Part shown: piece after piece, positions 2,197 to 64,000 of the stretch
How positions within the stretch are numbered: the stretch's first letter is position 1
Layout of the letters: every line of letters begins with the position of its first letter
NCBI GenBank assembly: GCA_033060915.1
Contig: CM065387.1
Coordinates: 39,226,501 to 39,290,500, forward strand
Length of the DNA stretch: 64,000 nt
Reading direction: 5' to 3'
Source: Euryodendron excelsum
Taxonomy: Eukaryota; Streptophyta; Magnoliopsida; Ericales; Pentaphylacaceae
Made by a program: the position numbers and the translations under genes
The notes under the pieces: generated by a model
Database searches by the model: none
Seen by the model: the letters and a program-made list of their open reading frames with translations, nothing else
What the model was told of the DNA's origin: nothing

Positions 2197-5100
2197 GGCG
2201 TCACTGCAACAAGCGTCAAGTCAATTCTTTCACTATAAATAAAGAGCCTCTTCAGCATGAAAGAGATCCGCAAACTCAGTCTAAGAACCCTACTCTTCGA
2301 CATACAGAGTCCGTAGTCTCCCTAAACTCTAGTTTTCTTTAGGTTTTCCAAACCCTAGCCCCCATACACAAACCCTAGCTCTCATATACTCTCATACACT
2401 AGCCTCTATTAAAGACTTGAAGTGCTGCAACCCCAAGCTCTCGAAGATCAATACAAGTTCCCGAAGATCAAGACGAAGACTGAAGCAAATACCGAAGCAA
2501 AGTAAGGAAAACAAAGCAAGCGAAACAAGGCAAATAAAAGAAGACGCAAAGTAGGCTCCCTATTTAAGTTTACGCATCTTCTCCCTCTCTTTTCTCCCTC
2601 CAAACCCACTTGAGTTTTCTTCTATTTTAATCCCTCATTTTCTTCTCCTCCCCCCCCCCCCTCTTTGCATGCTTGAAACAAGGGACTTCTCGGTCCATGT
2701 ATAAGATTAGGCTATTGAAGGTTACCGTGCCGGGGGCTTTCTTTTAGTCTAACCGGAGACCACGTGGGTTCAACCCCCTTGGTTATGTGGTGAAGCCTTT
2801 AACCTTGTATATTCACGACCCCAACTTGCATTATGCATATCATGATCTTGCATTCCTCCAAAATTCGTTTTCCAACTTGTTTTCAAAATTTGCATTAAAA
2901 TCTTTTTCAAAACTTATGTTAAAATTTTCTTCTTCAAAACTTATTTTCAAAATCACAATTCTAAGGTGATTCTAACCTTTCCATGGCTAAGGTTGCTTTA
3001 AAGAAGTATTATATTTAAAGTGACTAATATGATCCATATTTTCAAAATCATTATTATTTTCAAAACCATTATCTTAAAGTGATTCTAATCTTCTTATGGT
3101 TAGAATCGCTTTAGAAAAGTGAGATATTTTTATGGACTTTCTAAAAACTCTTTTCTCAAATCTTTCCTTCTAAAAATCCCTTTTTCAACATGCTTTCTAA
3201 AAATTCTCTCCAAAATTCGTTTCCAAAATTGTTTTCTAAAATATTCCCTTCAAAGATCTATTTTCCAAAACGTCTTCTTAAACTCCTTTCCAAAACGCTT
3301 CTTTCAAATTCACTGTCTAAGAACACTACCTAAACGCTCTCCTAAAAACTCTTTTCAAAAATCACTTTCTAAGATCTCCTTTCAAAAATCTTCCTTCCCA
3401 AAAATTCACTTTCCAAAAACCCTTTACCTTGGTGCCTAAGTCAAACCTTAGAGCTAATAATTAGGAAACCCTAATCTTCCTTTCCAAAAACATGATTTTC
3501 AATCTGACCTCAAAACCTAGGTTTCCAAAATCTTCTTTTTTTACATCAAAATCATAAATTTTCAAAATTTATTTTTTCTATATCAAAACTATAATCTTCC
3601 TAAATCTAGGATTTTCAAAACTTTACCTTTCCAAATCCACGCCAAATCAAATCTTCTGTTTTAAGAAACCAAATCCAATCTCCCATTTAGGAAACTAGAT
3701 CCAATCCTCCGTTTTCGGAAATAAAATCAAAGCACCTCTTTTAGAAACAAAATCCAATCCTTCGCTTTAGGAAATAAAAATCTCAATCCTTCCAAATCCA
3801 AATATTTCCTAATGCAAATCTTTTCTAATCTCATACCTCCCTAAACTTTAAGTTTTCCAAACTTAAACTTTTAAATCTTTCCTTAAACTTTAAGCTTCCA
3901 AATCTTTTCTAATTTAACCATTTCCTAATTTCATACATTTCCAAATTTCAACTTTTCAAATTCAAATCTTTAAATCTTTCCTAAACTTAAATCTTTCTTA
4001 ACTTCAAGTGTTTTCGAAAACTCAAACCTTCAAACATTTTCTAAATTCTAAACTTTCCTAAACTTCAAATCTTTTTAAATCTAAAACTTTCTAAATTCAA
4101 AACTTTCTTACTTTCAAAACTTCCCTATTTCAAAACATTCCAAATTCAAAACTTTTTAATTTCAATACTTTCTTAAAATGAAACATTTCCTATTTCAAAA
4201 CCTTTCTTATTTCAAAATTTTCCTAAATGAAAACTTTCCTAATTTGAACACTCTCCTAAACCAAAACTTTCCTAAAACAGAACTTTCCTAATTCGAATAT
4301 TTCCTAAATCCAATCTTTTCTTAAATCTAACATTCAAGTCAAATCTTTTTTAAAATCCTTCCAAGTCAAATCAAAATTTTCTTAATCTCAAGTCTTTCCT
4401 AAAGTCTCATCTTTTCTAAGTCTAGGTTTCCTAAAACCAGGCTTTCCAAAACCAATCTTTTCAAATTTTCCAATCAAAGTTCAATCTCTCAATCTTTCAA
4501 TCCAAATTCCAATTTAATTTCTTTTTCTAATCAAATATTCTATTTTCTATCGGACTCTTGTCCAAACCACGACTAACTTGATTCCTCCAAAGGGATACGT
4601 AAGCAACCCTCATAGGTGCAGTCACCACCTTTTTTAAATCTCAAATTCCATAATCTATTTCAAACTTCCAATTCCAAATTTCTATTTCCAAATCTCTATT
4701 TCCAATCTCCAAAACTTTCTTTCAAAATCAAATTTATCTTTTCAAATCTCTTTTCAAATCAAATCAAATCAAATCTATTTTCAAAATCAAAGTATTTTCT
4801 TACACTTGCATATCATGCATCATGTTAAATTTCTTTTTAAAAATTCTTTTCTAAAGTGGATAGTTTTAGATATAGATGAATTGAAGACTCTCATAGATGA
4901 ATCTAGGGTGGATAGACATGTAGGTACTGCAAGGGCGGGGTAGAGTGATGGCTTAGTACGTCTTTCCTATACGTAACTAGCCTCCAAACCTAAGATCACT
5001 GTTTTTAAAGATCAAATGGAGTTTATTTTCAAAAAATGGCTTAAATATTTTTCAAAGGTTGCCAAACAACCTATTTTCCTAAAAACCTTCTCTTGAGGAA

Positions 5101-5353
5101 GTATTTTCAAAATTGTTTTCAAAAACCCTAAGTGTAATCTTCGGATTGTGCTTAGTTTTTAGGTGACTTAACTCACCTTAATTAAGTTAGGTGGCGACTC
5201 CAAATTGTTTTCCAAAAGCCATTTATTCAAATCAATTTTCAATTCAAATCTAGTCGCACTCATTCTTCTAGGAGGATGAGTTCAAACCAGAGAATATAAT
5301 ATTTTTCCCGCTTATGTGTGTATTCCTCGAGTGCGAAAAATATAGGCGGGACT
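2197..5353 (+). repeat. 5' LTR of the Tat-like element, 5'-truncated
   Basis: Matches 16027-19142 over its whole length. The first ~1.46 kb of the LTR (14567-16026) has no counterpart upstream of 2197, and the solo LTR at 30955-34909 shows that the missing part belongs to a full LTR. A TATA-like box TATAAATA lies at 2234-2241. The middle of the LTR (about 2850-4800) is a G-poor, degenerate array of short TTTCCTAAA/TTCAAAAC words. The end aligns with the ...gcgcaaca terminus of the 3' LTR but is mutated (gcgggact). Confidence 0.8.
2234..2241 (+). promoter_or_regulatory. TATA-like box of the LTR promoter
   Basis: TATAAATA sits near the position where the LTR pair resumes homology; the 3' LTR has TATTAATA at the equivalent place (16064-16071). 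Two AAACCCTAG telo-box-like words follow at 2350-2358 and 2370-2378, about 110-145 bp downstream, the kind of element found near the start of many plant promoters. Promoter activity is inferred. Confidence 0.45.
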
Positions 5354-14566: not shown

Positions 14567-17500
14567 TGTAAGCACTCCATTTTTGCCCGTTCGGCAGTCT
14601 CCAGTCTATCTAGACTTGTATTCAAGTCAATATGGACGTATTCCAATCTAAATCAACTTTCCAAGTCTAATCCTGTTAATCAATCACTTCGCAGGCCCTT
14701 TAGGCCTAAACAGAGGCAAAATGACCAAAATGCCCTTGGGGGCATTGATCGGTCCAATTCCAATAGGCGCGTCTTTCCGAAGACGAAAAGTCCCTTTTCC
14801 AATTCCAATTCTAATTCAAATTCCAATACGTCCATCGAGAAAGTTGATTCTTCAAGGCGGTATGTCCATCCAATCCAGCACGTTTCCGAGTGAACTCTTC
14901 GGAAGGGTAAGTCCCTTTAAACCCGTCGACCAGGACGAGACCCCAAGTCCCCAAGATGGTAGAACAGTCCACCTTTGGCGCCTGCTGGCCCGCCAATGCA
15001 TAAATATCCGTTTCAGCATGCTTTTCAAGAAAGTTGATTCCTCAGGCACTAAGTCCATGTTAGCAGTTTCCCAAGATCAAGCAGTTTTGGGAATGATCGC
15101 GAATTGTTAGAGTAGCGGAAGTACTCGCAAACATCGCAATCGTCAGAGTGGTGGAAACACTCGTAAACAGGTCGATATAGAGAATTGCCAACAAACCCCT
15201 GTATTATAGGACTGCTATCAGAGTGGCAGAAACTCTCAAACCCAAGTCAACACCGGTACCTGCTAGCCCACTTCGGTGAAAAATGACCAAACTGCCCATA
15301 GGGCCATTTTTGGCACGCTTCTCAAGAAAGTACCTAAGTCCTCAAAATGATAAGTCCACATTTCCAATATTGTCTTAAGGGCAATCCGGCATGATTAGGT
15401 GCCTTCTAGTCAGTTTTGGGCCAATTCCGAGACTTTTCGGTTAAGATGACCATTTTGCCCCTAGGCATTTGAACGCCCCGGGAACCACACTGGCTTTGCG
15501 TATCAAACTGGTAACCTACTGAGAATGCTTTTTATAGTATTCCCGACCTTTCATTATCTTTCCGGATTATTTCGAGTCAATTTCGGCAAACCCAGTGCAA
15601 AATGACTGTTTTGCCCCTAGTGGGCTGATCAACTTTTTCGACCACACCGGCTCTGGATATCAAACCGGTAACATTTGGGAACATTCTAAATAATGTTTCC
15701 AAACCTCGAGTCTTCTTTCGGGACATTCTGAGTCCGTCTTGGTAGCTTTTCGGCACGGTTGACCGTTTTGCCCCTAATAGCCCGGTCAACCCTTCCAACA
15801 CATCTTGTCATCATTTTTCAAGTCTAATAACTTTGGGACTCTATTCTAAGGGTTCTTATTTCTTCCTAGCCTTCCAGGCTATTCCCAGCCCCTCAAATCA
15901 TTTTTGAACTTTTCAAAGTCACTCCCAGTGAAGCCAAGCTAAAAATTGTTTGGTAGTCACTAGTACAGGTGCCCAAATCTTCAAAAGATACGTTGCTTGC
16001 CAATCTTAAAACTTTCCTAAATGGCTGGCACCACTGCAACAGGTGCCAGGTCAATCCTCTCTCTATTAATACAGAGCCACTTCTAGCATGAAAGGGGTTT
16101 GCAAACTCAATCTAAAAACCCTACTCTTCAATATACAAAGCTTGTGGCCTCCCTAAACCCTAGTTTTCTTTAGGTTTTCCAAACCCTAGCCCCCATACAC
16201 AAACTCTAACTCTCATATACTCCCATACACTCATATATACTCATACACTAGCCTCCAAAGCATCCATTGAAGACTTGAAGTGCTGCAACCCGAAGCTCTT
16301 GAAAATCAAAACAAGTTCTTGAAGATCAAGATGAAGATTGAAGCGAATACCGAAGCAAAGTAAGGAAAACAAAGCAAGCAAAACAAGGCAAATAAAAGAA
16401 GACCCAAGGTAGGCTCCTTATTTAAGTTTATGCATCTTCCCCCTCTCTCTTCTCCCTCCAAACCCACTTGGGTTTTCTTCTATTTTAATCCCCCATCTTT
16501 TTCTCCCCCCCCCCCCTCTTCTTGCATGCTTGAAACAAGGGACTTCTCGGTCCATGTGTAGGATTAGGCTATTGAAGGTCACCATGTTAGGGGCTTTCTT
16601 TTAGTCTAACCGGAGACCATGTGGGTTCGGCTCCCTTGGTTATGTGGTGAAGCCTTTAACCTTGTATATTCATGACCTCAATTTGCATTATGCATATCAT
16701 GATCTTGCATTCCTTCAAAATCCGTTTTCCAACTTGTTTTCAAAACTGGCATTAAAATCTTTTTTGAAACTTGTGTTAAAATTTTCTTCTTTAAAACTTG
16801 TTTCAAAATCACAATCCTAAGGTGATTCTAACCTTTCCATGGCTAGGGTTGCTTTAGAACAGTGTTATATTTAAAGTGACCAATATGATCCATATTTTCA
16901 AAATTATTGTTGTTTTCAAAACCTCTATCTTAAAGTGGTTCTAACCTTCTTATGGTTAGAATCATTTTTGGGAAGTGAGATATTTTTATGGACTTTCTAA
17001 AAACTCTCTTTTCAAACCTTTCCTTCTAAAATCCCTTTTTCAACATGCTTTCTAAAAACTCTCTCCGAAATTCGTTTCCAATATTGTTTTCTAAAACATT
17101 CTCTTCAAAGATCTATTTTCCAAAACGTCTTCTTAAACTCCTTTCCAAAACGCCTTCTTCAAATTCCCTTTCTAGGAACACTCCCTAAATGCTTTCCTAA
17201 AAACTCTTTCCAAAAACTCAATTCTAAGATCTCCTTCCAAAAATCTTTCTTTCTAAAAATTCATTTTCCAAAATCTCTTTACCTTGGTGCCCAAGTCAAG
17301 TCTTAGAGCCAATAATTAGGAAACCTTAATGTTCCTTCCCAAAAACATGATTTTTAATCTTGCCTCAAAACCTAGGTTTTGAAAATCTTCTTTTTTTACA
17401 TCAAAATCATAAGTTTCTAAAATCTATTTTTTCTACATCACAACTATAGTTTTCCCAAATCTAGGATTTTTAAAATTTCACCTTTCCAAATCCATGCCAA

Positions 17501-19142
17501 ATTAAATCATTCGTTTTAGGAAACCAAATCCAATCTCCTGTTTAGGAAACTAGATCCAATCATCCGTTTTCGGAAACAAAATCAAAGCACCTCTTTTAGA
17601 AACAAAATCCAATCCTTCGCTTTAGGAAATAGGAATCTCAGTCCTTCCAAATCCAAATCTTTCCTCATGCAAATCTTTCCTAATCTCATACCTTCCTAAA
17701 CTTTAAGTTTCTCAAACTTAAACTTTTAAATCTTTCCTTAAACTTTAAGCTTCCAAATCTTTTCTAATTAAACCCTTTCCTAATTCAAATCTTCAAATCT
17801 TTCTTAAATTTAAACCTTTCCTAACTTCAAGTGTTTTTTAAAACTCAAACTTTCAAACATTTTCTAAATTCTAAACTTTCCTAAACTTCAAATCTTTCCA
17901 AATCTAAACTTTCTAAATTCAAAACTTTCTTACTTTCAAAACTTCCCTATTTCAAAACATTCCAAATTCAAAACTTTCCAAATTCAATACTTTCTTGAAA
18001 TGAAACATTTCCTATTTCAAAACCTTTCTTATTTCAAAACTTTCCTAAATTGTAACTTTCCTAATTTGAAAACTTTCCTAAACCAAAACTTTCCTAAAAT
18101 GAAATTTCCTAAAACAAAACTTACCTAATTCGAATACTTTCTAAATCCAATATTTTCTAAAACCCTTCCAAGTCAAATCAAATCTTTCTTAATCTCAAGT
18201 CTTTCCTAAAGTCTCATCTTTCCTAAGTCTAGGTTTCCCAAAACCAAGCTTTCCAAAACCAATCTTTTCAAATCTTCCAATCAAAGTTCAATCTCTCAAT
18301 CTTTCAATCCAAATTCTAATTCAATTTCTTTTTCCAATCAATTATTTTATTTTCTATCGGACTCTTGTCCGAACTACGACTGACCTGATTTCTCCAAAGT
18401 GATACGTAGGCAACCCTTATAGGTGCGGTCACCACCTTTTTCAAATATCAAATTCCATGATCTATTTCAAACTTTCAATTTCAAATTTCTATTTCCAAAT
18501 CTCTATTTCCAATCTCCAAAACTTTCTTTCAAAATCAAATTTATCTTTTCAAATCAAATCAAATTTATTTTCAAAATTAAAGTATTTTCTTACACTTGCA
18601 TATCATGTATCATGTAAATTTCTTTTCAAATATTCTTTTCTAAAGTGGATAGTTTTGGACATAGATTAATTGAAGACTCTCATAGGTGAATCTAAGGTGA
18701 ATAGACATGTAGGTACCGCAAGGGTGGGGTAGGGAGATGGCTTAGTGCGTCTTCCCTACACGTAACTAACCTTTGAACCTTGGATCACTTTTTTCAAAGA
18801 CCAAATGGAGTTTATTTTAAAAAAAAGGCTTAAATATTTTTCAAAGGTTGCCAAACTACCTATTTTCCTAAAAACCCTCTCTTGAGGAAGTATTTTCAAA
18901 ATTTTTTTCAAAAACCCTAAGTGTAATATTTGGATTTTGCTTAGTTTTTAGGTGACCTAACTCACCTTAATCAAGTTAGGTGGCGACTCCAAATTGTTTT
19001 CCAAAAGCCCTTTATTCAAATCAATTTTCAATTCAAACCTAGTCACACTCATTCTTCTAGGAGGATGAGTTCTAATGAGAGAGTGTAGTATTTTTTCTGT
19101 TGGTGTGTATAATACTCGAGTGCGAAAAATCTGGGCGCAACA
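14567..19142 (+). repeat. 3' LTR of the Tat-like element (about 4.6 kb)
   Basis: Begins TGTAAGCACTCC after a polypurine tract and ends gggcgcaaca at 19142. From 16027 it matches the 5' LTR; its first part matches the right half of the minus-strand solo LTR at 30955-34909 (start TGTAGGCACCCC). It contains many short segments of the type 'gaccgttttgcccctag' around 15290-15780, and the same G-poor TTTCCTAAA array as the 5' copy at about 16700-18340. Confidence 0.85.
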
Positions 19143-27628: not shown

Positions 27629-28989
27629 TGATTACACTCCAAAAGTATACTCAAAATTCCTTAAATAGTGGATTGTTAGCCCTAGTTTAGGTGTCAGAAT
27701 AGTGCTTTAACTATGTATTATTTTAATATGCTCTTTTTACATTTTTGTAGGAATTTTGGGCTAACAACAGTCAAAAGTGGGCTAAATTGAAAAGGCGGGT
27801 TCGAACGGTCCAATGAGCGTTCAAATGGTCCACCAAGCATTCGAATGCCCTATCAAATGTAGGCCACCATTTGCAAACTTCATAGAACAATTTCAGCGTT
27901 AGTGACAGGTTTGAAGACCGTTTGAGAGTTACAGAGGCTTGCAATCACCGTTTGAAAAACGTTAGAAGACCATTCGAACAGTTCGAACGGTCCCCTGTAC
28001 CTTTCAAATGCACTTACAGTGCTCTGCATTTTCCTGAAGACATAAAAGCTACTTTGGCCGAGAATTCGATAGAGAATTTAGTTTGTACTTGTTTCTAGAG
28101 AGAGAGATAGTTAGTTAGAGAGCTTTGTAGAGAGAAAGTGTATTTTCTTACCTTTTCTTCTACTTTGTTTGTATCTAAACATTAGATTTACTTCAATATA
28201 ATGCAAAATCTTCATTTCTTTATGCTTTCTTCCATGGAATCTAATAGCTAATCTTCTACTTGGAAGCAATTGTGAAGATCTACCAAGGAATTCAAAGATC
28301 TCAATGGAGGTATCTGGATTACAATGATTTATCCTATGATTTCTCTAAATTCATTTTAGTTGGGTTGTAGATCTATAGAAAACTTAGATTGATAATCACT
28401 ATTGGTAATTTCTATGCACAATTCTAAAATTGGTATAAGAATTGCACAATTGTTGGTTTGCTTCTACGATTCTTTGAATTGAATCCAAATGTAAGCTCTA
28501 TTAAGTGTGAATTCATAGTTTTATGGTCAAAATATTCCGAATGAAGGATCCATGGAGTGATCCTTGATTTGAGTTACACAATCCTCTATTGAATTCCTTG
28601 TAGGAATTGGAAGATTGAATTAATTGTATCCAAGCCCCTTTTTAATTGCCTTTGAATCCCGTCTTAATTGATTTTTATTGTTTATACTTGTAGTTGTTGG
28701 TTATTTCTAATTTCTTAATGTAATCGACTTAGAATCTAAATTGGTTAGTTAAATTGATTAGATTAGTTGTTAATTGCTCTTAGAATCAACCTTATCAAAA
28801 CTAAAAGATTTTTGGTTTACTTTTGTTACTCTTATATTCAATGTCACTTGTTTTGCAATTCAATTCAAATGAGTCCATAGTGAGTTGAGTGTCATTTCTA
28901 TATTGGTATCAATCCCATAGGAAGAACGATAATTGGTGATCAACTGGTAAACTACATTGCGAAACTATACATTTGCACGATCGAAGTCA
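27629..28989 (+). repeat. 5' LTR of the Athila-like element
   Basis: Starts TGATTACACTCCAAAAGTATA, similar to the starts of the LTRs ending at 35961 and 58495 on the minus strand, and ends ...cgatcgaagtca two bases before the primer site. It carries an array of TTCGAA-containing words (gttcgaacggtcc, cattcgaatgcc) at about 27798-28015 and several CT/AG-rich words around 28096-28140. Confidence 0.75.
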
Positions 28990-39842: not shown

Positions 39843-41313
39843 TGAAATCACCTCGTAAGAATACAGGGGCCGCGATGTAGTAAAAATCGAAAAATTCGGT
39901 GTCATTCTCTCTCAAGAGAATTCTGCAAATACAGCAAACAACACTCAACTAGCATGGAAACTTATCATTATGGATTGCAAATGAAAATTCTTTTCTTTTT
40001 CTAACATAAAAGAGACTGAAAACTTGTTGGTTTTGAGATAATGGGTGTTCTATGACTAGTACAATTACTTAACAATTAATAAAGGCAATAAAATCTAGTT
40101 TTTATGCAATTGTGGAAAAGCTTGGATATGGTTGATTCAATTCACCAATTCACAACAAGGGTTTCAAATGAGAGTTTTATAACTCAAATCAAGAATCACA
40201 CATTGGATTCTTGATTCGGAAGATTTTGACCATAAATGCTTGGGTTTATGTTTGATTAAGTGTAAAGATGAAATCTATGAGTAGCACCCAAGAATCAAAC
40301 CTTAGAAATGTGCAATACCTATAACAAATATCAAGTTGTGCATAAATATTATCAAGAAGAGTTATGAAGCTAAGTTTTTCAATGAATCTCACGCTCAATC
40401 AAATGAAACCATAGAAGTCTAGAGGTAAAGCTTTAAAGTTCATACATCTCATTTCTAAACCCTTGAAGATCCTTGGTGGATCTTCACAACCACATTCAAG
40501 AGATGTTTAGTTACTAGAATCCATAATAAAGAGCATAAATAAAGGTAAATTTAGTATTAATCTAAGTAAAACTAGTGTTTGGTTGCTAAGAAAGTGAGAG
40601 AAAATGAAAAAAAAAGTGAGAAAAAATGGCAAGAAAGTGAGAGAAACATCCACTTCATTCATAAACATGCATTTACAACAATCCAAAGAGAAATAAATGA
40701 CAAGATGACAAAGCTATTATGAAAACCTATTTAAAAAACCTTACAAAATCTCCCAAAAGTTCATTGAAAAGCTTCTTCCTACTATCCAAATCTGCAAATT
40801 CCCGAACATCCCCTTTTATCCCCGCACACACAGCTTTTATATTCTACAGAAAATCAGACTGTGTACAGACCAATCGATCGGTGGAGAATTGTGATCGAAC
40901 GGTTGATCGAACACCCATGGCGATCGAACGCGCTATCGAACGGAAAAACACACTCGCTAAAGGTTTGCTTTGTATTGTCTGTGGGAGGGGTTCTGACGTT
41001 GCCGATAGATCAAAAAAATGCCCTTTCTGAAGTTTGCTGCAGAAGGTCGAACAGAGCCATTTCCGACGTCGCCGATCGAACGGGATGTGCTGCGATCGAA
41101 GGACTATTTGATCGGTCGATCGATTGGTATGTGGCCCGATCAAATGGTCTTCCTAATTTTTGCCCATTTGCCTCGTCTTAAGCTTTGATTCCTGTAAAAA
41201 GTGCACAAAAGGGGTTTAATACATTTTAGGAGATAAAATACTAAATTAACACTTAAATTCAACTAATCAACTACTAATTTAGGCTTAGAGATTACTATTT
41301 CCGAGAGTAATCA
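39843..41313 (-). repeat. 3' LTR of the truncated Athila-like element
   Basis: On the minus strand it starts TGATTACTCTCGGAAATAG (right end 41313), preceded by the polypurine tract agttgggggttgt, and ends ...cgaggtgatttca (left end 39843). It shares the internal word order (attttataactcaaat, tagatcttcacaa) with the LTRs at 30.4-36.0 and 49.3-58.5 kb. At 40866-41130 it holds an array of GATCGA/CGATCG words (more than ten). Confidence 0.8.
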
Positions 41314-44207: not shown

Positions 44208-44439
44208 CAACCTCTAACTAGGCTAAGTAAAGCTGAAAATGAAATAATGGACCAAGATCAGTGGAAGGAATAGCTCTCGAAGAGCAGAAAACGGTGAAAA
44301 GATGAAGCTAGGTCCACCAAAGTGAGCTGGCAGGGCCTCGGTGCTCCAATATAAGAAAAGGCTCTCAAAACTTTATATTTCTCGCGATCGAACACAAATG
44401 AACAGTGAACTCACAGGTTTATATAGGTAGCTCTCCTGA

Positions 44440-44645
44440 CCGATCGATCGCCTCACGTACCAATCGAAGTGAAGCGCCAGCGATCGAGCGGCCAATCGAT
44501 CGATACCACTTCCTTTCGATCGGTGCGGTAATAAATGTGCACGTGGCCGATCGATCAATACAACTTCACCGTTCGATTAGCCGTTTGATCGCATAAAGTG
44601 CGATCAATCGGCGGATCAATTGGTTTGGTGCACCGATCGATCGCA
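44440..44645. repeat. GATCGATCGG palindrome array before the extra ORF
   Basis: At least eight copies of GATCGATC/CGATCGA-type words (for example ccgatcgatcgcc at 44440-44452, atcgatcgat at 44493-44502, ccgatcgatc at 44634-44643). They lie in the 5' flank of the extra ORF and are the same words that form the array in this element's LTR. A 22-base C run follows at 44708-44729. Confidence 0.7.
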
Positions 44646-44933
44646 AAAACTGCCTCTCTGAAGTTTTGTAGAAATTTTCAGAATTTCCATAGCAACATGC
44701 AAATGGTCCCCCCCCCCCCCCCCCCCCCCAAAAAATAAATAAATAAATAAACTAGAATCATGCCATGACCTCAAGGCATGAGAAACATGGGTGAGAAAAA
44801 GAACAATGGGGCGGGCAGGACTCTTAGGAACACGAATGTACACAACTAAACTACCAAAAAGATAAGAAAAACAAACCTATGGAAAGGAAAACAAAAGAAC
44901 TACTCCTAAACTATGAAACACGACAGGCCAATG

Positions 44934-49088: not shown

Positions 49089-49294
49089 TGGGGAGGTTAA
49101 GCTCTACCCTGCTCGTATCACTATACAACATAGTGGTGGCTGTAATTTTGCTGATTTGGGGTTATTCAAGTTGTAGTCATTTTCTTCCGCGACGTAATTT
49201 GGCATATGGAATCTTTATGTTTATACTCTTCTTGGTAGGATTAATCTCTGCAACACGAAAAGTCAAGCTCCTGCTAACGATTTATCTAACGGTG
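49089..49294 (+). pseudogene. Tetraspanin-like first exon cut by a retrotransposon
   Basis: From the ATG at 49089 the frame is open for 68 codons up to 49294; the stop is supplied by the inserted LTR. There is a first membrane helix (LVSLYNIVVAVILLIWGY), then a short loop with a cysteine, a second helix (GIFMFILFLVGLISA), then RKVKLLLTIYLTV. The run 'G.....LFLVGLI.A....K..LLL.IYL.V' is the second membrane segment and following turn of plant tetraspanins. These are small four-helix proteins of the plasma membrane that organise membrane microdomains. Only the N-terminal quarter is in the window; the rest must lie beyond the element, outside the window, or be lost. The similarity is by eye. Confidence 0.5.
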
Positions 49295-50441
49295 TGATTC
49301 ACTCTCCCAAATACACGTTGAGTTGGAGTTTTCCCCGCAAGAGCATGGGTGCCAATCGAAGTAAAACCGGCGAAGCCCGGTATCGTTCTCTCCCAAGGAC
49401 CGAGCCCAATATAGGCGTGGCACAAAGTGAAACCAACACAAACGGGAAGAATTAGCGAACTACTTAACAAATCGGAACTATACTAAAAATGAGACCGAAA
49501 ATTGTTTGGTTGGAGGTATGTTGTAAACTACTTGAACTATGCTAATTACACCTAGAATTGAAAGTAATTACGCTAAATTGGTGACAATTGATAAAAGGGG
49601 CTTGGATACAATTGATCAAATCTACCAATTCTCTAAAAGTGTCTCAATGGGGGGTTTTATAACTCAAATTAAGGATTCACTCCGCGGAACCTTCATTCAG
49701 AAGATTTAGACTATATAAATTGGGATTCATGCTCAATTGGTTGTAATTAATGATCAATTGCTAGGAATCTTAGGTTCAAATCATAATTTGTGCAATGCCT
49801 ATACCAATCAATGAGTTGTGCATAGAAATTACCAAACGTGATTATGAATCTAAGTTTTCTTAAGAATTACAACACAATTGAGATGAATTTGAAGAATTCA
49901 AGAGATGAAACATTGAAGTGTATATACCTCCATTGAAGACTTTGAAGATTCTTGGTAGATCTTCACAATTGCATCCAAGGAAGAGTCTAGCTACTTGATT
50001 CCATAAGACTAAGCAAGAGTGATTGAAGATTTCTCATTGAATTAAGAAGAAATGAGTGTTTGTTTACAAGGAAAATACGAGAAAATGTGAGAAAATACAA
50101 GGAAATATAGATCTAACCCACTTTCTCTCTCTATATCTAATCCTAACAGAAAATCTAAGCTAAATCTGATGATTCCCCCAAAAATCGTGTCATTTTCCGG
50201 ATATATAGCTGAAAAATAAGCACATGGGGGGCCGGGACCGTACGTACGGTCCAAAATACCGTACGTACGGACTTCGTACGGTGCCCAATACGCTGAAAAC
50301 AGCCTTTTGAAGTTTGAAAATTTGGCAGACCGTACGTACGGTTGCACCACAGTACGTACGGTGGAAAACAACGTACGTACGGTGAAAACAGCGTACGTAC
50401 GGTTGGCTTCACCGTACGTACGATCAAGCCACCGTACGTAC
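49295..50441 (-). repeat. 3' LTR, distal part
   Basis: Begins on + with TGATTCACTCTCCCAAATAC and matches 63218-64000 at a constant offset of 13923. From about 50238 to 50441 it carries eight GTACGTAC-containing words, mostly accgtacgtacggt. It continues at 58147 after the viral insertion. Confidence 0.9.
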
Positions 50442-51044
50442 TAACCCAGGTAGTAAGCCTCAACGATTTATAGGCACGCCCAGAGGGTCAACCAGACGTT
50501 GTTTGCGGCTTATAACAAATAATAAATAATGAAAGCAATTAAAACCAACCAATAAGGCGGTATAATCATAAAATAAAAGAAGATAATGAACAAGCAAATA
50601 ATTATTAATACTAGATTTTGCAGCATTGAATATTGAAATTGAAATTAAAGATTGAAAATAAAATTACATAAACAAATTGAAAATTACATAAACATTTGAA
50701 GATTACCAGGTAATATTTGGAAATCACTGATACTTGAACTTGAGATCTTGATTACAGAAGAATTCTAGAGAGAGAGAGAGAGAGAGGTTGGACTCGAAAC
50801 TTGGCCTGGGCTCCAAATGGGAGAGTCAGTGCTTAAATAGACAGAAAAGGAAAACTGGAACTGTTGAAATAGTGACGGTTTGTCGGTTGCCAAACTGGAA
50901 CTGTTGAAATAGGAATTGTCGGTGGCCGCAAGTTGTTTGTCTCTTGTGAATAGTGAATAGTGAACAGTAAAAGTCACTTTTATTGTAACAGTGTTGACTT
51001 TTTGCTGAAATTTGTCAAAAGAGCACCGAAAGTTGATGGTTTGA
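50442..51044 (-). promoter_or_regulatory. Viral promoter and leader region
   Basis: On the minus strand a TATA-like box CTATTTAAG (50840-50832) is followed after about 45-65 bases by a CT microsatellite (50786-50767). Upstream of the box there are two identical 21-bp direct repeats (50852-50872 and 50892-50912), placed like an enhancer. Transcription from here would run off the left end of the insert into the LTR, because the genome was opened just in front of the primer site. In the circular form the leader would continue at 58138. Promoter role is inferred. Confidence 0.5.
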
Positions 51045-52391
51045 TCAGTGGGGTGTCTGTCTTGCTTTGATCACTTCCTGTCGACTTTTGGAGCGAGTTT
51101 TGACTGGAGTGAAAATGCCAAAACAGTCATCTTCATTGTCCTGGGCAAGATCTGTAGAAGATACTTGAGAATCTTGATCTGGATTGGATGGAGAAGCCTC
51201 ATCATCACTATCAGAGAGAGATGATAAGGTTTCAAGCAAGTGTTGGCGAAGCTCCTTCTTGGATTTGGCTGCAGCTAATTGAGGAATTAATTGGCTACGA
51301 TTGAGGAGAAATTGGGGATCAGATGCCATAGCAATGGCTGGGTGTTGTTGAAAGAATTTGTGAACTGTTTGAGAGGTGATAGTTTGGGCAGCAGGCCAAT
51401 TATCCCACCATTTGACCTGAAAGCTTTGGGCAAGATAGGAAAAAGAATTTTGAGAAATGATGGTATAGTTCCAAGCACAAATCCATGGAATGGAAAATTG
51501 AATCATAAAAGGTAAAATGCAAGGGAATTTGGATAAAGCCCGATCAGGTATGAACTGGGTTTGACAGAGAAGGAATGCTTCATGGATAGATGGAGAAAAA
51601 ATTTGAGGTACGGACCCAAAGTGATTCCACCACAAAAAGAACCAATTTGGAAAAATGAAAGGAAAGTCCTTTTTGAAGGTAAACATCTAAGAGTGACTGA
51701 ATTTGGGATTTTGAAAGAAGAAAGTATTGAACCAGGCTTGTTGGTAATCATAATAATTGAAAGTAGGAGGGTTGTAAACTTCAGAAAAACGGCGGGAACG
51801 GAGAGGATGAGGCCCCCATTGTTCTTGGGTTAAGATTTGGTTAATGTAAACAGTAGAATAGGCAATGTGGGTTTTATCAGGATTATAATGATTTTTGAGG
51901 GAAATGGAATCAGTGTCAATGAGGATAAATTCATAAAATTGTTGGGTATGTAAAGGGGAGATTTGGAGAAAGTGTGTGTTCTGGGCAAACACTCTAGGAG
52001 AAATTTGAAATGGATCCTCATTCCATGTTTGATTTTCCAAAAAGACAATAGTTTGTTCACATTGAGTTTTGAGAAAATATTTAGATTTGACTATGGGGTT
52101 ATTAGCCACCACAGAAGAAGAAGAAGCAGAAGTGGGGTGAGAAGCCACCACAGAAGAAGCAGTAGAGGGGCGAGGAGCCACCACTTGTTGTTGTTGGGAA
52201 ATGGCGGTAGTTTGAGCATAAGTTTGAGATAATTGTTGAGTTTGGTCAATAAGTGTTTGGTTATACCAATCACTGGGAGACATGGGAGGAGGTGTTTGGA
52301 GAGGAATTGGTTTCATGGCATAAGAAGCTTTGGTTTTAGGTTGAGTTTGAGCAGGGGCTTTGCCGGGATCTCGACTGGGTTTAGGAGGCAT
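51045..52391 (-). pseudogene. Viral ORF2, function unknown
   Basis: One frame from the ATG at 52391 to the stop at 51045, about 448 codons, with a single in-frame TAG at 51687. It overlaps the end of the pol frame by about ten bases. The N-terminus (MPPKPSRDPGKA) is proline-, glutamine- and serine-rich up to about codon 95. The centre is rich in aromatic residues (WFFLWWNHFG and KWWDNWPAAQ). The C-terminus is acidic and serine-rich (SSLSDSDDEASPS). An additional ORF after RNase H is described for many Florendovirus genomes, and no role is known for it. The frame is the best-preserved in this copy. Confidence 0.7.
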
Positions 52392-54655
52392 GGTGTGAAT
52401 CTCCCTGTAAGAATTCTCGAGTAAGAAAATCTGGAAGTGAATTATCAGTGCCTTTAATGTAAGCGATTTTAAAATCAAAAACAGAAAGAATAGCTTGCCA
52501 TCGAGCAAAGATTTGTTTAGAAGCTATATTTTCTACATCTTTAAAAATAATATTTTTGGCAGCTTGACAATCAATACGAAGTAAAAATTCTTGATTTAAC
52601 AAATCACTTTGAAATTTGGAAATACATAAAACAATTGCTAATAATTCCTTTTTAATAGTGCTATAATTCTTTTGAGTAGGATTCCAAGTACCCGAGGTAA
52701 ACCTAACTAATTGTTCTTTGTTATTGAGGACTTGTTTAAGAATACCACCATAACCTATATCAAAGGCATCTGTTTCAACTATTTTGAAAGCAGTAGGATT
52801 GGCTAGGGTGAGACAAGGCAGGGTTTGAACGTATTGCTTAAGGGTTTGAACGGTCTTAGTATGTTCATTAGACCAAGCAAGAGGGTCTTTCTTAAGACGT
52901 TGCCTGAGAGGAGCAGCAATTTGACTTAAATTGGGATAAAAGTCAGAGACATAATTGAGACTTCCTAAAAACCGTTGCAATTGATTTTTATCTTTAATTT
53001 CATCAGGAAATTTATTAGCAAATTGGATAGATCTTTCAATAGGCGTAATTGTACCTTGATAAATATAATGTCCTAAGAACCTGACACGAGTTTGAAATAA
53101 ACTAATTTTCTATGCAGAAAGAACTAAACCAGTGTGTTTAACAATTTTAAAGAATTGTTCAAGATGTGTCCAGTGTTGAATAATAGAATTAGAAAAAATC
53201 AAAACATCATCAATATAAACAATTGTGAATTGAGAATGGGGATTGAAAATATCATTCATAATTTTTTGAAATTTAGAGGGAGCATTTTTTAAACCGAATG
53301 GCATTACATTCCATTCATAATGTCCAAAAGGTAAAGTAAATGCAGTTTTATATCGATCTTATTCAGCTAATTGAATTTGCCAAAAACCAGATTTCATATC
53401 AAATTTTGAGAAGATTTTTGCATGACAGAGATGTTGAAGAAGATCTTTTTTATTGGGAATAGGATACCGAATCCATTGAAGAGCATCATTTAAAGGTTTA
53501 TAATTAATTACTAAACGGGGAGCACCTCGTTCAATCTCAACATTTTTATAAACATAAAAGGCAGCACAACTCCATGGAGATCTACTAGGGCGAATTAATT
53601 TTTTATCAAGTAAATCCTGAATTTCTTTTTTACAATATTCAAAAATTTCATGGTTCATTTGGATTGGACGAGTTTTGGTAGGAATTTTGGCATCAGAAAA
53701 ATCAGAAGAATAAGGTAAAGTAACAACATGTTTGTGCCTAGACCAGAAAGCATTGGGTACATCAGAACAAACTTCTTGTTGTAATTTGGTTAAAAATTTA
53801 CCGATGGCTAATTGTAAAGTACCATTTTGTAAGCTACGTTCAATTTGAGTATTAATTTTTTCTTCTTTTAAAAATAATAAGTGTTTTTCTTTTCGAATGA
53901 TAAGATTGAGAGTTTTATGGGAAATAGCAAAATTTTTTAAAGTATTGAGATCTTTGGTACGAGGAGGACTTACAAAGGGAAAAATAATTTGATTATTATT
54001 AAGAGTAGTAGTGATACCTTTAGTAGTAACTTGAAAGGGTTGTAGAAGACTAAGGAAAGGAGTCCCTAATATAACTTCTCTGGAAAGGTTTTTGACAAGG
54101 ACAAAAGGAGTTTTGATACATACATTATTATTGCAAATATGAGCAGTAGAAAGTTTATATTATATTTGGAGTGGAGTTCCACTAGCAGCAGAGAGACATT
54201 CACGTGTTTTTTCAAAATATTTAGTAGGGATCAAACCTTCTTGAATACAAGTAAGATCTGTACCAGAGTCAAAAAGGGCAATAGTGTCAAATCTAAATTC
54301 TTGGTTAACAACAAGAGTAATTTTAACATTCCATTTTTGATAAGAGATTTGGGAAAGTAAGAAAATATCTGTAGGATTGGGAATATTAGGCTGGCTAGAA
54401 GAAAAGGAAGAGTGTTGAAGTAATAACACTTGATTCTTAAGATTATCAAGATTAATTTTGGAAATATTATGTTCAAGTTTTAAATCACGTAATTCTTTTT
54501 TCACAGAGTTGATTTCAGTTTGTAAGTCTTGAATAGTTATAGGGGAAGACTTAGAAGTTTGATCAAATCTTTTGAGAATATCATTAAGATTATAAGGGTT
54601 ATTTAATAATGAAATATCTTGGGTAGGTTTGTCAGCAGAAGTTAAACTTTGTTAA
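52381..54655 (-). pseudogene. Viral protease, reverse transcriptase and RNase H
   Basis: Pol continues in one frame from about 54655 to the stop at 52381, broken by stops at about 54160, 53359 and 53110. The N-terminal part is a coiled coil (about 54560-54420). The aspartic protease motif LFDSGTDL lies near 54275-54250. Reverse transcriptase blocks: LVINYKPLN (about 53515), FSKFDMKSGFWQI (about 53395), MPFGLKNAP (53304), and the catalytic YIDD at about 53217-53206, all intact. RNase H shows ETDAFDIGYGG, the Glu in KKELLAIV, DCQAA and a final Asp in DNSLPDFL. The enzyme would copy the pregenomic RNA into DNA (family knowledge). The stops make the copy inactive. Confidence 0.9.
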
Positions 54656-57167
54656 GTTGGAGTAAATAATCTTTTTTAACTTGAGAATCAGAAATTTTAT
54701 CTATAACATCAAGAAGTAATTCTTGTTCTTTTGTAATAACATTAATAGTACGTGTGGTTGGACATTGACAATTGGTTTTTATAATTTGGTCAGGTTCAGG
54801 AGAAGAAGAAGAAGTATGAGGTTCGTCTTCGTCAGAAGAAGATTGGGATACAATTTCATCTATTTGTAATGCATCATCAGAGAGGGAAGGATTATCAGAA
54901 GCATCAGAGTTTAAGAATAAATGCATAAGTTGTTGTTTAAGTGTTTCATCAATATCTAAGGAATTAATTTTTTGATTCATTCGACACTGATTTTTATAAC
55001 GGCCAACTTTACCACATTTGTAACATGTGGGGACTTTTCTGGTGTGTTTAGAAACATGTTTAGGTTTAGATGGAGAAGTTTTAACAGGAGGTTGTGCATG
55101 GGGTTTCTGGTAAAAAACATTAGAACTTGGTTTGGGTTTTCGAAAGAATCATCGTGCAGAAGTAGTGCGAGGTTTACGTCGGGAAGGGGGTATGATTTGT
55201 GTGGTATTTTCAAATCCAAATTGTTGGCAAAAGGTACCTAATTCACATTTGGAAGTGGCTAAATCCTTTTATAATTGTTAGTTAAGTTTGAAGTTGGTAC
55301 AAAGTTCAAGACCTTGGGTTTGGATGGCATTAATTAAGTCACCATAAGTGAGTTGTTCATAAGGGACAACGCCATTGTTGTTTTCTTTGAGTTTGTCTTT
55401 GACTTTTTGAGAAAATAGTTTGAGAAGACCATCTAAAAATTTTTCTTTCCAATGTGTTTGACGGCAATCATCACGTAACATAACTTTAGTTAAGAAAACA
55501 TCTTTATACCAACGAAAATCTTGAAGTTTTGGACATCTAAGATTATTGAGGATTTCAGAGGTAACAGCTTGGACTTTGGAAGGACGCCCTAAGAAGTGCC
55601 TAGAAATGGAACAGATAAGGGTACTAACTGCATCTTCAATTGTTTGATTGTTTTCAGTTTTGATGGGTGTACCATTTGAATCAGTTTTGATTGCAGTAAG
55701 GATTTGAGTACGTTCACTAGAGGTGAGAAAATGATCCCACTATCCTTTAAGATGACTAGTAAAACCAGCAACTAAAGCTTGAGCAACAGCAAAATCAGAA
55801 GATTTTTGTTTAGTTTTGTAGGCTAAAGCAACCATTGTCATTTTTTGGAGTTTGTTAAGAATATGATATTCAGTCATACCATCAAAATTCCATTCATAAA
55901 TAGTACCACCATGATAAGCAGCTTGATTGAATTGATTTCTTTCTTCATATTGCATATCAGGAAGAGTATGACGAGGATAATAATTTTTAGTGGTATTGGA
56001 TTCATAGCGGTTTTGATATTTCCATTTTTATTTTTTATTCTGGGTAGCATTAAGTTCTAAAGGTTGGGAATCATTAATGGTTTGTTCAATTGCTTCAACT
56101 TCAGAAAGGGTTGGTTGAGATAAAGTATTAATAGTTTTAGAAGTAGATGGAGGTGTGTCAGGTGCAGTGATACCACGGAGAACATGATCAAGTTGTGCAA
56201 GTTTGTGATCAATTTGAGAAGAAAAGTCTTGATTACTTAATTCATTTTGAAGATGTGAAGGGACTTCATGTGGTGTAAATAGAGGGGTTTCAGTAGTGGT
56301 GAGTGTAGTGACTTGATCTTTGCTGATAAAGTTTTCTACAAGAGTTAATTGGTTACCTATAGTTTTAAGTGTTTGATTTGTAAAATTATTTTGTTGTAAA
56401 ATATTAGAAATATCTTTGGTATTAGGAGGTGAAGTATCAGGCTTAAGTTTGAAAGGGGAAGCAGTAATAATACCAGATCGGTGTTGAATATGAATTTCTT
56501 CTAGAGGGGGATGAATATAAGGTTTAATAATATCGTTGGAAGTAACCCATTGATTTTCAATAGTGGTAATAAATTTAAATTGGTCAAAATAATTAGAATA
56601 ATATTCAAACCAGTCAAAGAAACTTAAATAAATTTTGTTATTTTGAACAAACTGATAATATTCTTCACGTATAGGAAGGCGAGCAATTTCGTCAAAGGTT
56701 TTTAAAAACCAATTCTTCTTTTGTATATTTTGGGGAGAATTAAAATCACAAACTAAAATAGATTTGTCAAAAATAAATTCTTGTTCTATCATATTTATTT
56801 GAGGATCAAGAGGAGGATCTGGAAGCATTTGAGATAGTGTGGGAGATTGGGGAAAATCATCTTGTGTATAAATAGGTTGTGCAACATTAGAAGTTGTGAC
56901 AGATTGTAAGACAGGAGATCTAAAATGCATTGAAGAAGAATGAACAGAGGAAAAAGAACTCCTAGGTCGGAAAGATTGAAATTGAGTGCTAGCAAATGAT
57001 CCAATATCTGAGAATCGTGGTCGAGATGACCCTGCCGTAGTATTGGTGAATTTGATACGAACACTGCCATCAGTGCTTTCATGAATATATTCTAAATTTT
57101 TGTTTTCTATGGTTGTAGATGGAACTTCATTGTTTAAAGTCCATTCTAATGGGAGATTAACATCTTC
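54642..57167 (-). pseudogene. Viral capsid region with zinc knuckle
   Basis: Continues the movement-protein frame after a TGA at 57168-57170. Stops occur at about 56028, 55740, two near 55265-55278 and one near 55150. The capsid core is recognised by the block YKDVFLTKVMLRDDCRQ..WKEKFL (about 55515-55440) and the following GL..L...KVKDKL. The knuckle CYKCGKVGRYKNQC near 55030-54990 keeps three cysteines in the C-x2-C-x9-C spacing, but the zinc-binding His is Arg. Downstream is an acidic, serine-rich tail (SSSDEDEPHTSSSSPEPD). Two of the stops are TAG or TGA where a Trp codon is likely. This is where the frame shifts to pol. Confidence 0.85.
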
Positions 57168-57860
57168 TCAACGTATGGTCTTGGGAGTACTAATATTGGA
57201 GTCACTATTCGTATAAATAAGGAGTGTTTCGCCTTTGGGGCTTGTGATCTTACAACGTGGATCTATAAGTGTAGTCATGGCTTTGAGATGGATTCGATAA
57301 ATAATGGAAAAAGGGATATTGCCTGGTCCTAAGTCATAACCAGAAATTTTAATTTTAAGTGTGAGGACTTTAAGAATACCAGTATCTTGGAGACATACAG
57401 CATATCTGGGATAACAATCAAAATGGACAGGCCCACTATAAAGACTTGTTTCAATTAAACCTAAGGTACTGTTGATAAATGTTGTGTGTCTTTTATCTTG
57501 TAAAGTTAAAAGAATTGCAGTATTTTGACCCTGACGGGTTAAGGGAACAACAACTACTTGTACTAATCCTAAGTGTAAATAATTGTATTTTTGTTGTTTG
57601 TATTTGTTAATAAGATTTTGATTGAGAAGTTGAATTTGTTGAGATGATTCTATAAAAGGAATTGTTTGTTCGACAGTTTTAATAGTATAATTGGACAAAA
57701 AATTAAAGGGTTTAATTTGATAAACTTGACGAACTGAGACACGAGGAGGTGTCCAATTGAGAGGAGGAAAACATTGTTCTTCTTGGTTAAGTATTGAAGT
57801 GTCATTACTACTATGAGATTGCCTAGATACAGAAGACATGGTTCTCATTAAATGATTCAT
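57168..57860 (-). pseudogene. Viral movement protein region
   Basis: Opens at the ATG at 57860 and ends at a TGA (57170-57168); the capsid region follows in the same frame, so the TGA is probably a damaged Arg codon in a longer polyprotein. The central part has the look of the 30K movement-protein superfamily as found in Caulimoviridae: LHLGLVQVVVVPL, LLTLQDKRH, a GLIETSLYSGPVHFDCYP block and SGYDLGPGNIPFSI (57320-57280 region). Such proteins open plasmodesmata for virus spread (family knowledge). This piece is free of internal stops. Confidence 0.85.
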
Positions 57861-58120
57861 TAGGGAACTTAATTGTTTATCATTTAAGTATTTAGATTCA
57901 AAATTATATAAAGATTAATACCTATGGGTGATCTAGATGTATCCTAGCCGATCAACGTTTTACACCTACTGCCTCAACCTTGGGACTTACAACGGCTATG
58001 CGACTAGTTGGTTTACAGGTTCATCAGATAACACAGAGGATAAGAATCAGATATATAACTTGAAAACAAATACATGAAAGATTCATAATAAGTGACTAAT
58101 AAATACAATTACAAAGAACT

Positions 58121-58134
58121 TGGCTCTGATACAA
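58121..58134 (-). other. Viral primer binding site, tRNA-Met
   Basis: On the minus strand the sequence TTGTATCAGAGCC matches the initiator tRNA-Met complement TGGTATCAGAGCC at 12 of 13 positions. It lies four bases from the right end of the insert, so the virus genome was opened almost at its minus-strand start site. Confidence 0.85.
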
Positions 58135-58146
58135 TTATGTACGTAC

Positions 58147-58495
58147 GGTCAACTTATTTTGATAAATTTTCAAAAGTTATATGAAATCGATATATTATGG
58201 ATTCCGGTAGCCTTTCTGGTTTGGGAGATATTGCCCTTCAAAGTTTCAGCTTTGTGCGCTTTAACTAGTTGTACCACAGCTTTAACAGATTGTACCTTGA
58301 CAGCATTGTCTTGAAAAACACATTCTCCTTTCAGCCGAAATGCGCCCGAAACCCTCCACATTAAGCTCAAAACCTATACAAAGCAAAATATCTTTATTAA
58401 TACTAAAATCTAATTAAAGAGGCATATAAACTCCTAAACTAAGGCTAACAAATGGCAAATTAAGGTGTTATAATTGCACTTTTGGAGTGCAATCA
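58147..58495 (-). repeat. 3' LTR, proximal part
   Basis: Continues the LTR from 50441. On the minus strand it starts TGATTGCACTCCAAAAGTG (right end 58495). Together with 49295-50441 it makes a LTR of about 1.5 kb. The polypurine tract (aagttggggggtg on the minus strand) is directly next to it. Confidence 0.85.
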
Positions 58496-62689: not shown

Positions 62690-63194
62690 TGTACAAACAA
62701 ATTGGTAATCCGCGCCTCAACAAATCAATTCACAATTCCCTTCCACCAATTTGCCTTCCGAACCCTCCAATCTCCACATAAATGTACCCCTAATTCGCAA
62801 TTCAATTCAATTCAAACCAACCAAAACCTCCAATCTCCTTAGGCAATAGCAATACCACCAATAAGCAAATAGTACACAAGCCTATCCACCAATTACTATC
62901 CACCAATTGAGTTCTCAATGCAATGAAAAATTCTACACTAATCAAACAAAAATAATCCTAAAATAAAAGAGAAAATCAAAAATCAAAATCTATCATGCTA
63001 TCACACAAAATAGTGGAACGAAGTTACCTATGGCCTTAGCCGAAGATTTTTCCATCGAGGGTGAGTGATCAACTCCCACCTGTTTAGTTTTCTTGTGCTT
63101 CTTTATTTGCTGTTTTTTTGTGTTTTTTTTTCTATGCAATTCGCCAAGTGCTTCTCCAATCCACATCTTATTGGTGTTCGCCTTATGCTTTCGA
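62690..63194 (-). other. Leader between primer site and accessory ORF
   Basis: About 500 bp without supported coding, with T-runs near 63111-63131. It separates the primer site from the ATG of the accessory ORF. Confidence 0.5.
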
Positions 63195-63212
63195 TCCCCG
63201 GCAACGGTGCCA
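63195..63212 (-). other. Primer binding site, tRNA-Asp type
   Basis: On the minus strand TGGCACCGTTGCCGGGGA lies five bases after the 5' LTR end. It is one base different from the site at 28995-29012 and characteristic of Athila-type elements. Confidence 0.85.
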
Positions 63213-63217
63213 AAACT

Positions 63218-64000
63218 TGATTCGCTCTCCCAAATACACGTTGAGATGGAGCTTTCCTCGCAAGAGCACGGGTGTCAATCGAAGTAAAACCGGCGAAGCC
63301 CGGTATCATTCTCTCCCAAGGACCGAGCCCAATATAGGCGTGGCACAAAGTGAAACCAACACAAACGGGAAGAATTAGCGAGCTACTTAACAAATCGGAA
63401 CTATACTAAAAATGAGACCGAAAATTGTTTGGTTGGAGGTATGTTGTAAACTACTTGAACTATGCTAATTACACCTAGAATTGAAAGTAATTACGCTAAA
63501 TTGGTAACAATTGATAAAAGGGGATTGGATACAATTGATCAAATCTACCAATTCTCTACAAGTGTCTCAATGGGGGGTTTTATAACTCAAATTAAGGATT
63601 CACTCCGCGGAATCTTAATTCGGAAGATTTAGACTATATAAATTGGGATTCATGCTCAATTGGTTGTAATTAATAATCAATTGCTAGGAATCTTAGGTTC
63701 AAATCATAATTTGTGCAATGCCTATACCAATCAATGAGTTGTGCATAGAAATTACCAAACGTGATTATGAATCTAAGTTTTCTTAAGAATTACAACACAA
63801 TTGAGATGAATTTGAAGAATTCAAGAGATGAAACATTGAAGTGTATATACCTCCATTGAAGACCTTGAAGATTCTTGGTAGATCTTCACAATTGCATCCA
63901 AGGAAGAGTCTAGCTACTTGATTCCATAAGACTAAGCAAGAGTGATTGAAGATTTCTCATTGAATTAAGAAGAAATGAGTGTTTGTTTACAAGGAAAATA
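63218..64000 (-). repeat. 5' LTR, partial (continues beyond the window)
   Basis: The first 783 bp on + match 49295-50077 with no gap and about 16 substitutions by my count. The remaining half, including the palindrome array region, lies outside the window. Confidence 0.9.

Follow-up and report, generated by a model that had tools for sequence, protein, structure and literature searches.

How does the DNA of a pararetrovirus come to lie inside the promoter repeats of a retrotransposon? The 64,000-nucleotide stretch analysed here (the window) raises this question, as it carries a caulimovirid genome with the same 8-bp word on both sides, set in a palindrome array of a long terminal repeat (LTR). 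Excerpts of a 2023 review call caulimovirid entry into plant chromosomes speculative (PMC10377300). In the published passages available, the integrase-less caulimovirid DNA of florendoviruses and rice tungro-like elements lies beside palindromic (TA)n repeats, which at some Oryza loci pre-exist the insertion (PMC4241990, PMC526188, PMC10377300). With (TA)n as the published clue, a further class of palindromic targets that vary in sequence would make it possible to tell the effect of hairpin formation from that of AT-richness. Moreover, an LTR that exists in many similar copies offers natural empty sites, so that break-and-capture becomes directly testable.

Results

The inserted DNA is an endogenous caulimovirid that has decayed (Table 1). 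Searched piece by piece, its minus strand gave, from first to last, movement protein, coat, protease, reverse transcriptase and RNase H domains, which upholds the placing of a virus here by a sequence-only reading of the window. Coding frames, followed by hand, are interrupted by a number of in-frame stops, and at least once the frame shifts from one piece to its neighbour. Relatives of the RNase H piece were at most 72% identical and, where named, came from eudicots (best 120 of 1008). No integrase family was found across the ten viral pieces searched; the movement, reverse transcriptase and RNase H pieces, single or aligned, had no match in IMG/VR, and the coat piece had none among solved structures at E up to 1. 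The search for further viral fragments in the window gave just one 31-bp match at 84%.

Table 1. Features of the window, with positions counted from its first letter
Feature	Position	Strand	Basis or remark
3' LTR of host retrotransposon, portion downstream of insert	49295..50441	-	LTR pair
LTR palindrome array	50238..50441	.	most units 20-21 bp apart
Left copy of doubled target GTACGTAC	50434..50441	.	
Endogenous caulimovirid, 7697 bp (roughly the length of one genome)	50442..58138	-	Pfam on separate pieces
RNase H piece	52381..53109	-	PF17919, E 4.7e-26; PF17917, E 1e-21
Reverse-transcriptase piece, partial	53359..54159	-	PF00078, E 3.3e-4, 20.9 bits, below cut-off 29.6
Aspartic-protease piece	54160..54651	-	PF00077 RVP, 20.4 bits, just below cut-off 20.7
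Coat-protein domain piece	55278..55739	-	PF22909 Caulimovir_coat_dom, E 1.9e-10
Movement-protein piece	57168..57914	-	PF01107, E 3.4e-19
tRNA primer-binding site	58123..58134	-	differs from TGGTATCAGAGC at one letter; right junction 4 bp away
Right copy of doubled target GTACGTAC	58139..58146	.	
3' LTR, upstream (U3) portion	58147..58495	-	match to end of sister LTR
Retrotransposon primer-binding site TGGCACCGTTGCCGGGGATC	63193..63212	-	read from sequence
5' LTR, cut through by the window end	63218..64000	-	runs on to C11:39291232; carries empty site

Close to its right end the insert carries a motif, matched at 11 of 12 letters, which we take to be the initiator tRNA-Met primer-binding site of Caulimoviridae. 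With up to two mismatches the motif occurs seven times in the window, against 3.6 expected by chance; in other copies of the virus the site is a full match (GGCTCTGATACCA). Head-to-tail copies elsewhere contain the closed junction GCTCTGATACCATTACTAACCCAGG (CATTAC/TAACCC), as expected of a circular genome. The window copy ends in ...GATACAATTAT and starts with TAACCC, with no visible loss relative to the native junction, which places the opening of the circle just upstream of its primer site. Two letters near its right end are unlike those of other copies. Two leader forms exist beside the primer site (L036, L038 and L039 against L040, L044 and L050), AGTAAGTGAAAGC... replacing AGTAAGCCTC... 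right after a common start.

The virus lies within the 3' LTR of a host retrotransposon oriented on the minus strand; if it entered in place, the viral copy must postdate the element. In a self-comparison of the window, 49295-50077 is 98.0% identical to the other LTR over 783 bp, with 16 differences (12 of them transitions), so that the name LTR given earlier to the DNA holding the array was correct. The U3 portion starts with TGATTGCAC, which a purine tract precedes. The primer site of the element (TGGCACCGTTGCCGGGGATC) is presumably of the Ty3/gypsy type, and three internal ORFs gave no Pfam domains. On its two sides, the element's own target duplication takes the forms CGGTG and TGGTG (49290-49294 and L001:1534-1538). 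Elsewhere in the window lies a 3.1-kb direct repeat (2202-5348 and 16032-19137, 88% identical).

The array is the most hairpin-prone host DNA in the window (rank 1 of 561 scanned segments; z -8.99). In the empty-site reading it has eight exact cores about 350 bp into the host LTR, and it sits just upstream of a TATA-like box, GCTATATATCC. It thus shows the features of Sirevirus-type boxes, namely at least eight palindromic copies per element, mostly from 200-400 bp into the LTR onward, upstream of TATA. Most units are spaced alternately by 20 bp and 21 bp, close to two turns of the helix, an arrangement that might align bound factors along a single face. The array sequence had no match in IMG/VR.

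As the sequence-only reading had stated, GTACGTAC directly adjoins the insert on either side, and the left flank holds eight copies of it (50240-50441). Besides the copy at 58139, the sole other one in the window is at 1357; ten copies in 64 kb compare with 0.10 expected, and none of 100 shuffles reached ten. Also as stated, the right flank goes on with GGTCAAC, and the host flanks joined over one 8-mer give ACCGTACGTACGGT. At the junctions the direct repeat stops at 8 bp; to match 9 bp one has to turn to the neighbouring unit. We set aside blunt breakpoints falling at random in the array without any duplication, which gave a repeat of at least 8 bp in 2.2% of simulations.

Empty copies of the LTR show what stood at the site. 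For the window LTR family we scored 40 of 3161 first-look candidates and fetched 30 loci: the window copy, its sister, 20 others readable at the site and 8 unreadable there. The sister LTR (L001) carries no virus and reads ...ACCGTACGTACGGTCAAGCGACCGTATGTACGGTCAACTTATTTTG, that is, one unit and then GGTCAACTT; the 20 further copies (L015 among them) likewise have a unit directly before a GGTCAACTT-like end. The last unit of the sister is one letter off GTACGTAC, and its array is one unit longer than that of the window, at the far, TATA-side end. The idea that the array had once been longer here, so that the flanks would simply be two of its units, is rejected on these grounds, as a single unit occupies the insert's place in the sister and in all 20 readable copies. 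The flanks are hence two halves of one unit with the 8-bp core doubled: a single unit (ACCGTACGTACGGT) took in the virus, and GTACGTAC became duplicated. The duplication may measure anywhere from 5 to 9 bp, because the letters TAC stand both before TAACCC in the circular viral genome and at the end of the host half-unit at the left junction. The two routes originally proposed, a target duplication of up to 8 bp or joining by microhomology at a palindrome prone to breaks, are both supported and do not exclude each other here.

Further integrants were sought with a 299-bp query from the right end of the virus (41 matches; 40 of 199 first-look candidates scored), and the reading of ends covered 41 of the 199 candidates. 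Twenty-five of the 41 right ends continue into virus, 15 exit into host DNA and one (L057) lacks an anchor; the exits were set by eye and later confirmed against insert pieces. They represent 14 loci, the window copy included, since L048 and L066 are two ends of one locus. The set was enlarged from nine to 14 by adding L049, L052, L058, L059 and L068 once outer host DNA had been seen. Flank limits were set by eye at nine loci and, on the left side of the other five, by BLAST, where they may be some bases off.

The junctions of these loci vary widely. L055 has an 18-bp direct repeat at both ends (CCGATCGATTGGTTTGGC, which includes CCGATCGATTGG) and lies in a palindromic CGATCG unit; viral TTGGC and TACC match the host there, as judged by eye. 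L072 combines a 14-bp direct repeat and 9 nt of filler, the 8-bp repeat of L056 lies 10-11 bp inward, and a terminal repeat is absent at L053, L035, L043 and L048. At L042 two 16-bp inverted arms meet at the insert, and at L068 the insert is one base off the centre of a 22-bp palindrome found by eye, TTGGCGCCACTAGTGGCGCCAA. L049 lies inside a (TA)n tract, and L043, L052, L058 and L059 lie in unremarkable DNA. Six loci (L035, L048, L053, L056, L068 and L072) fall in one LTR family with GGCGCC boxes; L035 is within another inverted repeat, its own GGCGCC boxes being more than 300 bp off.

Such variable duplication, filler and microhomology appear to fit end joining of breaks better than the action of one integrase. 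It is very improbable that a retrotransposon integrase inserted the viral DNA, or that the insert came in as a virus-retrotransposon chimera made by template switching, with a 5-bp target-site duplication. Although the duplication in the window could be 5 bp if the TAC of the left junction is counted as viral, and both ideas appear in print for other viruses (excerpts of PMC10377300), the repeats of 18 bp, of 14 bp with filler, or of no length at all argue against them, as do viral ends that are not TG...CA and the ten viral pieces that yielded no integrase family.

Elsewhere, viral copies are clustered in both orientations within about 20 kb at two places, L044-L047 (C7:26.90-26.92 Mb) and L051 with L063-L065 (C23:7.38-7.39 Mb).

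Hairpin energy was computed for the 14 loci on 200-nt sites with both host flanks joined. The 830 control segments overlap one another; 550 were taken from the window and the other 280 from 20 stretches set at fixed fractions along ten contigs. Their 5% threshold is -24.4. Eight loci were at or below it (window copy -40.3, L053 -38.8, L056 -38.3, L072 -37.7, L042 -36.9, L068 -30.8, L035 -27.9, L048 -27.3) and six above it (L052 -22.4, L055 -20.0, L059 -17.8, L058 -14.9, L049 -14.4, L043 -7.3). In a test designed after the flanks had been seen, 8 of 14 loci, or 7 of 13 without the window copy, thus fall among the most hairpin-prone 5% (binomial p = 1.0e-6 for the 13). Rank tests without the window copy gave p = 1.5e-4 against the random stretches and 7.4e-5 against host DNA of the window. 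In the 150 bp past the 15 right ends energy was again below controls (p = 0.005-0.03), and perfect palindromes of at least 8 bp containing G or C were not in excess there (p = 0.18-0.22). Most of the extreme hairpin-prone stretches in the sample are boxes of LTR promoters.

Roughly half of the other copies examined thus lie in hairpin-prone stretches, which suggests that fragile DNA traps viral DNA. The expectation that further integrants would show palindromes at their flanks was borne out in this sample: besides the seven extreme cases among the 13, L055 occupies a palindromic unit and L049 a (TA)n tract, and the four loci in unremarkable DNA show nothing of the kind. The targets are palindromes of several sequences, not GTACGTAC itself.

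Could the preference reflect nothing but chance and abundance, that is, a single LTR family that is very common, or a small number of insertions multiplied together with that family? The large number of first-look candidates for the window LTR family, and the 6 of 14 loci in another single family, lend this some weight. When the GGCGCC family was cut to one representative, p rose to 0.033-0.035 over eight non-window loci, and the support from other loci is strongest in that one family. Copying is at odds, however, with breakpoints and flanks that differ between the loci of the family. Abundance is at odds with the matched flanks 300-1100 bp off, where the signal is missing: the first nine loci, without the window copy, differ from their own flanks (p = 1.0e-3). 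Against a preference at the insertion sites, 6 of 66 segments (9%) that far out also pass the threshold. We regard this explanation as improbable.

Open promoter chromatin, rather than the palindromes, might also draw viral DNA, through transcription-coupled breaks or accessibility. It would predict much the same places, and promoter position and palindromes are confounded in the present data: in the GGCGCC family the TATA box is preceded by five junctions, at distances of 53, 69, 136, 244 and 431 bp, the window array has its TATA-like box just beyond it, and of the seven loci that are neither in that family nor the window copy only L042 passes the energy threshold. Accessibility fits less well, however, with inserts at the centre of an inverted repeat (L042), one base from it (L068) or inside one unit (the window copy), and with energies that are less extreme 300-1100 bp along the same flanks than at the site itself. 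On balance this explanation is unlikely, if less so than chance and abundance.

Discussion

The reading that we favor, with a probability of about 0.6, is that viral DNA was captured during break repair inside one palindromic unit of the LTR promoter array. Palindromes would extrude hairpins or stall replication forks and then break with staggered ends. There, viral DNA that is gapped and has its free end at the primer site could be taken up by end joining, aided by short microhomology, and fill-in of the overhangs would produce short duplications. More tentatively, and in our estimate at somewhat under even odds, one could envision that LTR promoter palindrome arrays of any sequence act as fragile landing pads, where hairpins are cut, primer-open viral DNA is captured and the promoter is broken alongside. 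If this is true, the regulatory repeats of one transposon family would shape the landing place of another retroelement.

Capture at break-prone LTR promoter palindromes is best read as an extension of the published (TA)n bias. That bias, together with empty sites and breaks, is treated in the available portions of PMC4241990, and those of PMC526188 report 93% of ends at AT repeats and junctions at viral discontinuities. Breaks are the explanation offered for the palindromic (TA)n bias in excerpts of PMC4241990 and PMC10377300, and end joining has also been proposed. L049, in its (TA)n tract, resembles the florendovirus and rice tungro-like loci. In contrast to florendovirus targets as described in these excerpts, most targets here are G+C-containing LTR promoter palindromes of several sequences. 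(TA)5 occurs within 150 bp at 1 of the 14 loci, a figure not directly comparable with the florendovirus count, for which the published excerpt uses a distance of 1 kb. The sequence-only reading had considered that a preference for such palindromes would be new for these viruses. This needs to be narrowed, since palindromic (TA)n is already on record in those excerpts; among the open-licence papers listed, no title or opening of an abstract names LTR promoter palindrome arrays as pararetrovirus targets. Related work, likewise available in part, includes PMC5491270, PMC13308828 and PMC9794742.

Nested LTR retrotransposons, according to excerpts of PMC6911290, show a slight preference for palindromes and insert into other elements. 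They differ from the present loci in having an integrase and mostly 5-bp duplications, and in seldom hitting LTRs.

The array has a parallel in the Sireviruses, whose LTRs, in the portions of PMC2829016 available, carry palindromic boxes from 200-400 bp into the LTR and upstream of TATA; the host LTR agrees with these in both position and placement. Those portions call the palindromic motif Sirevirus-specific and do not treat viral insertion. With TGGCACCGTTGCCGGGGATC, the host element probably has another primer site than the Sireviruses.

Palindrome boxes with other cores (TTCGAA, CGATCG) are found at 27790-28010, 40860-41140 and 44400-44700, the first two in or beside DNA related to the LTR of the window, and 44401 marks the next most hairpin-prone region of the window after the array itself. 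Boxes with element-specific cores may reflect a shared promoter design.
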